Positions 59,238 through 61,432 of a stretch of 64,000 nucleotides of DNA are shown here, one piece after another. The notes under the pieces are model-generated. The model worked only from the letters and a program-made list of their open reading frames with translations, ran no database searches and was not told the DNA's origin. The stretch's first letter is position 1. Each line of letters opens with the position of its first letter. This stretch comes from Paenibacillus sp. UNC499MF (GTDB taxonomy: Bacteria > Bacillota > Bacilli > Paenibacillales > NBRC-103111), in contig NZ_FNVF01000001.1 of assembly GCF_900107975.1 (NCBI RefSeq), forward strand, positions 997,237-1,061,236. The letters are read 5' to 3'. Made by a program: the position numbers and the translations under genes.

Positions 59238-59726
59238 TCAGAAAATATAGAAGATGAGACCTTTGCCTTCGGCTGCGGTTTGGCTGTAGAAACGTCGGAT
59301 TTCGTTAAAATGCTGAAGCAAGTAGGCGAAAAACTCGTCCGCATCCTCGTCTGAATGAATGCCAGCCTCAAGAGGATATACCTCTTCCTTGAGCATGACC
59401 GGAAAATCATACCGCAAGCGGAGCTGCGCTTCATCCAGCTCAGACATAGCCTGAAGCGCTTCGGCAACTTGCTCGGCACGTAAGGAAAACGCCCCGAAGG
59501 AGCCGAAATCGATGCCTTTGTCCGACGTTATCGGCACCACATAGCCAAGAGGGGGCTCACCGTCGGCAATACTTCCACAAAGCAAGAAATGAATCGCCTC
59601 CCAGGTTCTATCAATGTCCAGTCCGGGATATTTGTCTATTTTCAAATCCTTCAATGCAATGTCGCCTGCAGCGATTTGCTGCACCAGTTCGTTATCCATA
59701 GAAAAGTAATATCCTCTCATTGCCAT
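59238..59726 (-). CDS. DUF1877 family protein (YfbM-like)
   Basis: 162 residues. 'YPGLDIDRTWEAIHFLLCGS' is the family core (D-I-D-K-x-W-x-x-L-H-x-L-L), with 'PPLGYVVP' and a C-terminal 'NEIRRFYSQTAAEGKGLIFY'. Function unknown. ATG at 59726 lies 8 nt after GAAGG. Monocistronic and divergent from the leader at 59900. Confidence 0.82.
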   Translation of the reverse strand: MAMRGYYFSMDNELVQQIAAGDIALKDLKIDKYPGLDIDRTWEAIHFLLCGSIADGEPPLGYVVPITSDKGIDFGSFGAFSLRAEQVAEALQAMSELDEAQLRLRYDFPVMLKEEVYPLEAGIHSDEDADEFFAYLLQHFNEIRRFYSQTAAEGKGLIFYIF

Positions 59727-59899
59727 GCTGTCAGCCTTCTTTCCATTTTTAGTAGGGGTTATACTGCACAATCTAAATGTAACATTCTGGAAGTGAGTAT
59801 TTCAAGGAACAGTAGACATATGAGTCAAATCTCGGATATCTCAATGTAGTAGATCCGTATGTGTCCAGGCCGAAACAGGCAGCCTTATTCTTTGAGATG

Positions 59900-59928
59900 T
59901 TGCAATGTAAAAGCGGGCATGTTAAGAT
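59900..59928 (+). promoter_or_regulatory. Sigma-A promoter of the Cfr-like gene
   Basis: TTGCAA (59900-59905) and TAAGAT (59923-59928) with exactly 17 bp between. Transcription would start near 59935, giving a leader of about 465 nt. Confidence 0.6.
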
Positions 59929-60090
59929 CGTGCTGACACTTAACGATCGGAGTTGAAGAGGATAATGTAAGTTTTCTTGCCACTGTTTAAAGAATAAAAC
60001 AAAAAAATGGTTTATTCTTTATCGGCAAGAAAGTTACCTTATTCTTTTCTTTCAAAAAATATCCTTCTCATACCCTGCATAGGGGGGGGA

Positions 60091-60126
60091 ATGTGCCGGT
60101 ATTTTTTTGAGCTACAAGAAAGGTAA
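60091..60126 (+). CDS. 11-residue leader peptide of the Cfr-like attenuator
   Basis: ATG at 60091 directly follows AGGGGGGGGA and encodes MCRYFFELQER, stop TAA at 60124-60126. The last six codons form the 5' arm and loop of the terminator hairpin, so ribosome position on this ORF controls folding. An even shorter start-stop (ATGTAA) lies at 59965-59970. Leader peptides of this size control resistance genes such as vmlR and erm in Firmicutes; this one is inferred from layout. Confidence 0.6.
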   Translation: MCRYFFELQER

Positions 60127-60146
60127 CTTTCTTGTGGCTCTTTTTT
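60109..60146 (+). terminator. Attenuator terminator in the Cfr-like leader
   Basis: GAGCTACAAGAAAG pairs fully with CTTTCTTGTGGCTC (one G-U) around GTAA, followed by T6. A 14-bp stem 255 bp before the gene start, with no gene ending here except the leader ORF, is best explained as an attenuator. Confidence 0.85.
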
Positions 60147-60175
60147 ATTTTGACATTTCCAGGAGGATGAAAGCG

Positions 60176-60289
60176 ATGATGAATGAGGTTGTAGATGATT
60201 GTGTGAATCGGTTCCTGATAGATGAAGCGGTTCACAAAAAAACAAATCGGTTGCCGGAGGCTTACCCATCTATCGACAGATGCACATAG
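60176..60289 (+). CDS. Small ORF in the Cfr-like leader
   Basis: 37 residues, MMNEVVDDCVNRFLIDEAVH and onward, ending TAG at 60287. ATG at 60176 lies 9 nt after AGGAGG, a strong site. Acidic helix-like N-terminus; no family recognised. A second terminator-like structure follows (about 60302-60366: GCGCTTT with AAAGCGC, outer CAACCG-type pairing, then TTTT), so it may be a second leader ORF. Confidence 0.5.
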   Translation: MMNEVVDDCVNRFLIDEAVHKKTNRLPEAYPSIDRCT

Positions 60290-60400
60290 CGATCCGTCTG
60301 CAAACGTTATGCGCTTTTTCTGCATAGTTGGTTAACGACGTGTCAAAGCGCCATCTGACGGTTGCTTTTATTACGTTTTCTCCGGCAGTAAGGAGAAGAC

Positions 60401-61432
60401 ATGAAACTACCCTCTAAATATGAAACGATTCGGCAAATATTGTCCGACTTCAAGCAGCCCGAGTATCGGTATGCTCAGATTATAGATGCGATTTTCAAGA
60501 GAAACGTCGGGGAATACGAACGGATGACCATGCTGCCCCAATTTTTGCGCGGCGAGTTGACCCGGATGCTTGGTCCGAACGTCTGCAGTATCGTTCCCGT
60601 AAAAGAACTCACGTCGAAACAGGTTAACAAGGTACTGTTTGCGATTGCGGGCGGCGAGCGCGTGGAGGCCGTGCGACTTACTTATGAGCGGGGCTGGAAA
60701 TCTTACTGTATTTCCACGCAGTGCGGCTGCGGATTCGGGTGCAGATTTTGCGCCACCGGTACCATCGGCCTGAAACGAAATCTGACCGCCGACGAAATTA
60801 CCGACCAATTGCTGCACTTCCGCTTGCACGGTCACGCCTTAGACAGCGTCTCCTTCATGGGCATGGGGGAGGCGCTCGCCAACCCGCATATTTTTGATGC
60901 CATAACGATTTTGACCGATCCGCATCTCTTTGGTTTAGGACATCGGCGAATTACGGTATCCACCATTGGCCTGCTGCCGGGTATCGATAGGCTGACACGT
61001 GAGTTTCCGCAAGTCAATCTAACCTTCTCGCTGCACTCGCCGTTCGACGATCAGCGAAGCGAACTGATGCCGATCAACGACCGATTCCCGATCCAAGATG
61101 TGTTGAATGCATTGGATCGACATATCCTGCAAACGGGGAGAAAAGTATATATAGCGTATATTCTTCTTCGGGGAGTCAACGACTCGGCGGCGCATGCGGA
61201 AGCAGTTGCCGAGTTGTTAACGGGAAGGGGACCTGTGGAACATCTTTACCACGTTAACTTGATTCCGTTCAATTCGACCGAAGTTACGCCGGACAGCTAC
61301 CGGCAATCTGAACCGGATCGGATTAAAGCGTTTGTTCGGATCTTGAAATCAAAGGGAATCCGTATGACGGTCCGAACTCAGTTCGGATCGGACATTAACG
61401 CGGCATGCGGCCAACTGTACCGCTCCGAATAA
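60401..61432 (+). CDS. Cfr-type 23S rRNA (adenine-2503-C8) methyltransferase
   Basis: 343-residue radical-SAM methyltransferase. The cluster-binding motif is Cys110, Cys114, Cys117 in 'QCGCGFGCRFCATG'; Cys103 and the methyl-carrying Cys336 ('NAACGQLYRSE') match Cys105 and Cys338 of Cfr. Cfr-specific stretches such as 'MGMGEALANPHIFDA', 'VNLTFSLHSPFDDQRS' and 'LMPINDRFPIQDVLN' are kept, and the longer N-terminus of RlmN is absent. Methylation of A2503 at C8 blocks phenicols, lincosamides, oxazolidinones, pleuromutilins and streptogramin A. Similar chromosomal genes (clbA, clbB) occur in Bacillus and Brevibacillus. ATG at 60401 follows AAGGAGAAG. Confidence 0.9.
   Translation: MKLPSKYETIRQILSDFKQPEYRYAQIIDAIFKRNVGEYERMTMLPQFLRGELTRMLGPNVCSIVPVKELTSKQVNKVLFAIAGGERVEAVRLTYERGWKSYCISTQCGCGFGCRFCATGTIGLKRNLTADEITDQLLHFRLHGHALDSVSFMGMGEALANPHIFDAITILTDPHLFGLGHRRITVSTIGLLPGIDRLTREFPQVNLTFSLHSPFDDQRSELMPINDRFPIQDVLNALDRHILQTGRKVYIAYILLRGVNDSAAHAEAVAELLTGRGPVEHLYHVNLIPFNSTEVTPDSYRQSEPDRIKAFVRILKSKGIRMTVRTQFGSDINAACGQLYRSE

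Follow-up and report, generated by a model that had tools for sequence, protein, structure and literature searches.

How is a chromosomal cfr gene switched on? The effect of Cfr-type methylation extends to several drug classes at once, and the switching-on of chromosomal cfr genes is little described in the searchable literature. The window analysed here is a 64,000-nt stretch of contig NZ_FNVF01000001.1 from the 5.84-Mb genome of Paenibacillus sp. UNC499MF. An earlier note, made from the sequence alone, had placed in it a ribosome-mediated transcription attenuator in front of a Cfr-type gene. The assignment of the gene holds: its translation exceeds the curated cut-offs of the TIGR04432 equivalog (626.6 vs 550 bits) and of NF011024 (602.9 vs 468) and carries the radical-SAM motif CxxxCxxC as CGFGCRFC. 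By family membership, the protein would methylate A2503 of 23S rRNA at C8 and confer the matching resistance. The closest plasmid-borne Cfr is 56% identical to it; among the named cfr loci listed, from which very close records may be missing, the top match is that of Paenibacillus sp. HGH0039 (93%). The evidence below makes it quite probable that this gene lies behind a leader in two parts: an attenuator built around AUG-UAA and inherited from a deleted lsa gene, followed by cfr's own ORF2 leader (Table 1).

Table 1. Features of the cfr leader region (positions within the window, read 5' to 3').
Feature	Position	Strand	Remarks
Promoter-like pair: -35 TTGCAA (59900-59905); extended -10, TG (59920-59921) and TAAGAT (59923-59928); spacer 17	59900-59928	+	Position conserved in relatives
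SD-like GGAG (59949-59952) and AGAGG (59957-59961); one-codon uORF AUG-UAA (59965-59970), proposed drug sensor	59949-59970	+	77 leaders compared
SL-1, predicted anti-antiterminator hairpin; the uORF lies in its 5' arm	59955-60050	+	Covariance-model match 59949-60055; covariation above shuffles and slides
Segment 2 (CAAGAAAGTTACCTT): can form the 3' arm of SL-1 or, with 60120-60134, the antiterminator	60026-60040	+	Exact 15-nt complement; 98.5% of cells pair in 77 leaders; antiterminator predicted with AUG masked
SL-2, putative pause-type hairpin, then TTNTTT motif; contains the start of the non-conserved 11-codon ORF	60053-60108	+	
SL-3, predicted intrinsic terminator: stem 60109-60140, T6 60141-60146	60109-60146	+	Changes on both sides at 5/14 pairs in 77 leaders
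Site of the lsa gene, or of an lsa 3'-end remnant, in relatives	60147-60160	+	Inferred for the window; almost no lsa left there
SD (60161-60166); ORF2 (60176-60289, 37 codons and stop), predicted cfr leader peptide; hairpin arms 60203-60209 and 60229-60235; segment X TGCCGGAG (60252-60259)	60161-60289	+	
Predicted hairpin hiding the cfr SD: TTCTCC (60378-60383) with GGAGAA (60392-60397); CTCCGGCA (60380-60387) complementary to segment X	60378-60397	+	
Cfr-family 23S rRNA A2503-C8 methyltransferase gene	60401-61432	+	343 aa; TIGR04432 626.6 bits, cut-off 550

The first part of the leader (59949-60146) comprises three predicted hairpins: an anti-antiterminator, a pause-type hairpin and a terminator. 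The predicted fold of 59940-60150 has -75.1 kcal/mol; 200 dinucleotide-preserving shuffles average -42.0 (sd 3.95; z -8.4), and none of them is as stable as the native sequence. The terminator, which the earlier note had called a perfect 14-bp stem with a T6 tract, does have 14 pairs and the T6, but one of the pairs is G-U. The two alternative partners that the note had given to segment 2 are both borne out: this segment is the exact reverse complement, over 15 nt, of 60120-60134, that is, of the terminator loop and 3' arm, and it is also predicted to pair with 59967-59981 inside a single long hairpin. When the 5' arm is removed (59985-60150), the predicted fold is the antiterminator. The promoter-like boxes noticed earlier are likewise kept in relatives (TTGCAA, 17 nt, TAAGAT with a preceding TG), though a generic promoter scan did not include the pair at 59900 in its list. 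SL-2 is a putative pause site by virtue of its motif; TTNTTT is found ahead of the terminator in 100 of 120 related leaders vs 991 of 2400 shuffled segments. SL-1 is nearly self-complementary, and the covariance model built on it (R1) scores the minus strand as well (59953-60053, 43.7 bits); matches on both strands were taken as one element.

Conservation was assessed in a collection of 126 leaders. Six of these were set aside as lying outside the span searched, although they contain segment 2 or a near copy, and the remaining 120 were reduced to 77 non-redundant leaders by dropping near-duplicates and those without a fitting SD motif or length. Pair counts in SL-1 gave 41 double-change cells, against 14.4 in shuffles, and those in the terminator 39, against 14.7; both figures also stand above slid controls. 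Of the 924 cells of the antiterminator helix, 98.5% pair, with zero covariation in the 77 leaders, its sequence being too conserved. Lack of conservation of the complementary segments in relatives, one of the outcomes that would have refuted the note, is thus not observed. As far as folding and conservation tell, 59949-60146 is predicted to be a ribosome-mediated transcription attenuator, with computational support for its structures, its conservation and its fold switch.

Which start codon would be occupied by the sensing ribosome? The note had chosen the 11-codon ORF at 60091-60126, which overlaps SL-2 and the 5' arm of the terminator. Such a sensor has some appeal: a G-rich stretch could serve the ORF as SD, and a ribosome stalled in mid-ORF would abolish the terminator. 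An ATG-started counterpart of more than one codon, however, exists in just 6 of the 120 leaders, the window included; at the same site, 5 others have a bare ATG before a stop, 17 only TTG, 4 only GTG, 72 no start and 16 no stop. In the first cfr loci aligned, too, the frame mostly lacked an ATG or was shifted. When pairing was forbidden in a 32-nt footprint, a mimic of a held ribosome, placed on the 60091 start, the probability of the terminator remained 1.00. Moving the footprint to mid-ORF removed the terminator, yet no antiterminator formed, and the conserved segment 2 stayed locked in SL-1 without a role. Since this ORF is not conserved and the folding tests put the switch elsewhere, it was rejected as the sensor and retains very little probability. 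The claim of an attenuator before a Cfr-family gene survives, being of the vmlR/ABC-F kind with a second leader stage; it is the sensing ORF that had been misplaced.

The likely sensor is the AUG-stop uORF in the 5' arm of SL-1, which stands behind a conserved SD-like element; the note had overlooked both. A start codon is kept there in 77/77 non-redundant leaders (ATG in 76, GTG in 1), and its T, unpaired in the fold of the window, is invariant. The second codon is a stop in 71/77 (TAA 46, TAG 16, TGA 9); in the other six leaders the uORF encodes MYTFLRA, MYISC, MWNFLANI, MEFSC, MDFSC and MDFSC. These counts were taken from aligned sequences, regular-expression counts having picked a wrong upstream ATG in loci such as L026, L031, L195, L233 and L237. 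The stop may not have been selected as a stop: the second-codon positions pair with segment 2, and because any T-purine-purine would pair, a stop codon could be there as a consequence of the pairing. TGG, also competent to pair, is about as frequent as expected under independence (seen once in the 77 leaders vs 2.3). A reading of ATAATG as a -10 box rather than a start codon was considered and rejected: the sequence just ahead of the ATG is variable, some copies have GTG in place of ATG, and the conserved promoter-like pair lies upstream. In five leaders (L241, L242, L243, L249 and L250) the terminator loop is itself ATGTAA, a second start-stop at the site of antiterminator pairing.

Masking the AUG at 59965 reverses the predicted fold. 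In the window, the probability of the terminator falls from 1.00 to 0.08 and that of the antiterminator rises from 0.00 to 0.92. Across the 119 leaders evaluated, the terminator exceeds 0.5 in all when unmasked; with the AUG masked, the antiterminator does so in 110, and in the other 9 the terminator still prevails above 0.5, a lack of switch that counts against the explanation preferred here. Sliding the footprint along 30 of the 120 leaders gave the antiterminator in 27 with the ribosome at the AUG, in 2 at -15, in 9 at +15, in 1 at +30 and in none from +45 to +135; in 3-nt steps, it formed in 19 to 27 leaders between -6 and +9 and in 13 at +12. The switching zone of the window is wider, the antiterminator probability being 0.84 at -6 and still 0.83 at +21. 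In these predictions, then, a ribosome more than a few codons beyond the AUG usually fails to switch the RNA, a limit that would account for the brevity of the uORF.

The leader belongs to a widespread family. BLAST revealed a second copy in the window's own genome, before an ABC-F gene, and matches in 43/98 relatives; R1 matches occur in 201/392 genomes of the order, representing 29 of 49 genera, and in 30/299 genomes drawn from the class (the genome sets behind these surveys overlap one another). The downstream gene of the 126 leaders was called by script as ABC-F in 79 cases and cfr in 27; among the 20 left uncalled are one cfr (L195) and, judged by eye, several ABC-F genes. A second test, based on short protein motifs, found an lsa motif downstream in 96, a cfr motif in 36 and neither in 5, where the labels of L183, L185, L194 and L217 may reflect lsa remnants rather than intact genes. 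Two of the ABC-F genes were checked and pass the Lsa cut-off (770.9 and 763.0 vs 750). The best solved relative of the ABC-F protein in the window's genome is LsaA (430.7 bits), the next scoring 191.5 and 6ha8, which we take to be VmlR, 179.3; VmlR was rejected as the ABC-F of the relatives, the genes checked being Lsa. Among 33 named cfr loci, 19 have a strong R1 match (48 bits or more, on the cfr strand), against 105.6 bits in the window, and 14 have none, some because the contig ends; the match in L092 is weak and far upstream.

A blastn search with the leader against 72,556 plasmids gave none at E 1e-5. In four plasmid cfr loci R1 matched just twice, weakly and on the minus strand (E 0.22 and 0.32), and no AUG-stop attenuator like that of the window was seen; in a set of 18 plasmid or more distant cfr loci it found one clear match (L296) and weak ones in L308 and L310 (minus strand). 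Rfam searched at a permissive threshold over 59500-60600 returned 12 matches, all far below gathering scores, and at the gathering threshold it had no match in five other copies of the leader. Two copies within the family have unusual neighbours. One (L017, G046:C19), with an altered uORF region and neither lsa nor cfr in the list of downstream ORFs, is possibly an orphan attenuator; in the other (L022, G051, 1786-2097), the ABC-F gene behind the leader is open for only 103 codons, and the leader seems to have outlasted the gene.

The home of this leader seems to be before lsa-type ABC-F genes. The order leader, lsa, ORF2, cfr is found within one stretch in seven loci (L172, L174, L179, L181, L204, L233 and L237), and in five others (L036, L040, L041, L044 and L054) an lsa frame immediately ahead of ORF2 is open for 391 to 417 codons, as far as the stretch extends. 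In loci of several genera, leader and cfr have no intact lsa between them. Of 25 leader-cfr loci, 8, from genera g1, g7, g11 and g12, still carry pieces of the lsa 3' end between terminator and ORF2; g1 is the window's own genus (G002, G003). These pieces align with scores of 41-176 vs a shuffle maximum of 32. The longest remnant-bearing interval is 174 nt (L151, L186). The references for this search span only about 98 nt before ORF2, and L185, which by eye holds pieces of both lsa ends, was left uncounted. From these remnants, cfr seems to have kept the leader of an lsa gene deleted from an lsa-cfr operon. For the window genome the deletion is deduced from relatives, since almost no lsa is left there. 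As to the reverse loss, three loci (L188, L208 and L232) have lsa and an ORF2-type leader with no cfr in the stretch fetched, leaving orphan leaders after an apparent loss of cfr.

The second part of the leader (module 2) extends from 60161 to 60400. The second ORF that the note had pointed out there exists and is conserved: a DNA profile recognizes module 2 in 30/33 named cfr loci and matches Ruminiclostridium and Anaerocolumna weakly and in part; some of the loci from which the profile was built come from the same genomes as the named ones. ORF2 behaves as a coding sequence. Its ratio of replacement to silent changes is 0.47 in frame vs 1.26 and 1.04 in the shifted frames, over 46 related sequences that are not independent trials; the shifted frames are closed in 46/46, and the spacer after ORF2 is free in phase (17, 15, 14). 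One of 47 sequences, L059, has ORF2 frameshifted. On this coding signal ORF2 is predicted to be a translated leader ORF. The other element reported earlier, a second terminator-like structure, is weak in the window and unlisted by the scan; by inspection, it looks good only in more distant cfr leaders. There, a GCACCGG...CCGGTGC hairpin with a T run stands opposite a segment of the CCGGAGC type, an arrangement which, judged by eye, suggests an older form working by transcription attenuation. The window has a stronger feature in the hairpin hiding the cfr SD. Pairing of the TCTCC:GGAGA type, at least 5 bp long, is found in 45/47 rows, L073 and L089 having other or shorter pairing, and segment X can pair with the anti-SD strand in 349/376 cells. 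In 44 of the 47 homologues (L059, L085 and L089 were skipped), equilibrium folding without a ribosome gave the SD hairpin in 33, which supports repression by this structure. The pairing of segment X with the anti-SD appeared in 7/44 without a ribosome and in 19/44 with one at the ORF2 start (0.12 in the window, whose fold thus hardly changes); these figures weakly support release by a ribosome held at ORF2, the least certain stage of the scheme.

Leader-peptide translation attenuators of the erm/cat kind combine a translated leader ORF with a hairpin in which the SD of the resistance gene is sequestered until a ribosome stalled in the ORF opens it; module 2 shares with them the coding signal of the leader ORF and the SD-hiding hairpin. 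For the staphylococcal pSCFS1 cfr, the available text of one report proposes that uORFs and an RNA structure occluding the RBS make Cfr inducible as a translational attenuator (PMC8752094). A staphylococcal plasmid leader (L282) has a 59-codon ORF ahead of cfr (485-664), and similar ORFs occur in other Bacilli (L288, L298, L302); in all four, a segment of the CCGGAGC/TCGGAGC type lies opposite a hairpin of the GCACCGG/GCACCGA type. The L282 leader encodes KQLPEL in another frame, as does ORF2 of L082 in its own. By eye, L282 shares with module 2 a stretch resembling CAGTTGCCGGAGCTTTGCC and the stretch GCACCGGT, and its match to the profile is weak (E 0.0018); a tblastn search of plasmids with the ORF2 peptide gave no match. 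Mobile cfr leaders may, on this slight likeness, descend from module 2. A Lysinibacillus plasmid has the order lsaB (annotated in two pieces), uORF, cfr. Before the cfr-like genes of L304-L308, two consecutive CCGG-centred terminator-like hairpins with T runs follow a GTTTTCGC...GCGAAAAC repeat; judged by eye, they are apparently another kind of attenuator for Cfr-like genes.

Two further explanations concern the leader as a whole. A ribosome-independent riboswitch, or a terminator under protein control, would let a ligand or an RNA-binding protein choose between SL-1 and the antiterminator, and a long, highly conserved and widespread leader RNA is what it would predict. It leaves the conserved start codon behind an SD-like element and the invariance of its unpaired middle base without a reason, and the folding switch is located precisely on this AUG. 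The usual downstream genes belong to ribosome-protecting resistance families, and no Rfam family is reached at threshold; the explanation is judged improbable. In the window, the first leader could instead be a mere leftover of the deleted lsa, with cfr under the control of only the ORF2 leader or another promoter. That the lsa remnant has nearly gone, that 14 of the 33 named cfr loci lack a strong first-leader match and that ORF2 forms a complete leader in its own right would all fit. But the window retains SL-1, segment 2, the terminator, the promoter-like pair and AUG-UAA, each of them intact, and the coexistence of leader and cfr without an intervening intact lsa recurs in several genera. 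The generic promoter scan lists no plus-strand promoter-like pair between 60146 and 60401, but neither did it detect the conserved one at 59900. This explanation, too, has a low probability, on a par with that of the riboswitch.

The two-part leader would operate as follows. Without drug, a ribosome initiating on AUG-UAA would be released at once, SL-1 and then the terminator would form, and transcription would end near 60146. If a drug held the initiating ribosome on the AUG, the 5' arm of SL-1 would stay covered; segment 2 would then bind the loop and 3' arm of the terminator, letting RNA polymerase continue. Candidates for such a drug are lincosamides, pleuromutilins, streptogramin A and perhaps phenicols or oxazolidinones. 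In the second part, a ribosome held early in ORF2 would free the cfr SD from its hairpin. The first part would have reached cfr by deletion of the intervening lsa from an lsa-cfr operon. In this scheme, the response to drugs, the termination in the cell and the switch in part 2 are what we infer.

The order of parts recalls vmlR of B. subtilis, whose uORF, in the accessible text of PMC9226507, is a tripeptide (MIN and variants). Both leaders have a uORF with SD at SL-1, a pause hairpin SL-2 with TTNTTT, a terminator SL-3 and an overlapping antiterminator; vmlR is reported there to be switched by a ribosome held at initiation, as folding leads us to propose here. The likeness described here is one of arrangement. 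The vmlR-type features found in this family are the uORF with SD at the anti-antiterminator, hairpins that are mutually exclusive by folding and the TTNTTT pause motif. It differs from vmlR in that the uORF is AUG-stop and that the family usually precedes lsa; 79 of the 126 leaders precede an ABC-F gene, and the gene in the window is of the Cfr family, behind a second leader. Short uORFs with terminator/antiterminator or SD control have also been described for cplR, VmlR2 and LsaA (PMC10201436) and for the tiaA and are5sc leaders (PMC12421871). Their uORFs, as far as the accessible parts of these two papers go, are MR[I/M], MK[L/Q], MAGN, MLV and MVGDDDISG, with no bare start-stop among them, and the genes are all ABC-F, whereas that of the window is cfr. 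The uORFs reported in the available text of all three papers are three codons or longer. According to PMC12421871, as accessible, lincosamide-type drugs stall ribosomes at the start codons of ABC-F uORFs while erythromycin does not, and toeprinting shows start-codon stalling by drugs on the ARE5 uORFs of tiaA and are5sc. Literature searched by title or abstract, with subscription papers largely outside its reach, yielded neither transcription attenuation of cfr nor a start-stop uORF in a bacterial drug attenuator.

A bolder proposition, which we regard as possible though somewhat doubtful, is that AUG-stop constitutes a codon-free sensor, using neither an elongator tRNA nor a nascent peptide. 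It would report only ribosomes frozen at initiation, as by drugs of the peptidyl-transferase centre, and respond neither to amino-acid starvation nor to macrolides. Two ribosome sensors would then act on cfr one after the other, as an AND gate, and the first of them would have been captured from lsa by deletion more than once, in different genera.

If the scheme is true, a start and a stop are enough to make a regulatory uORF, and the sensing of an initiation-held ribosome would be separated from the sequence of a leader peptide, a minimum requirement that is directly testable. Environmental cfr genes may then be inducible at two levels, and tests run in the absence of an inducer could miss them. 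The adjacency of cfr and lsa is known in pathogens, according to the accessible text of PMC10201436. In Paenibacillus and its relatives, lsa and cfr would once have formed one regulated operon, and the order lsa-uORF-cfr on the Lysinibacillus plasmid is a possible trace of the source of the mobile cfr leader.
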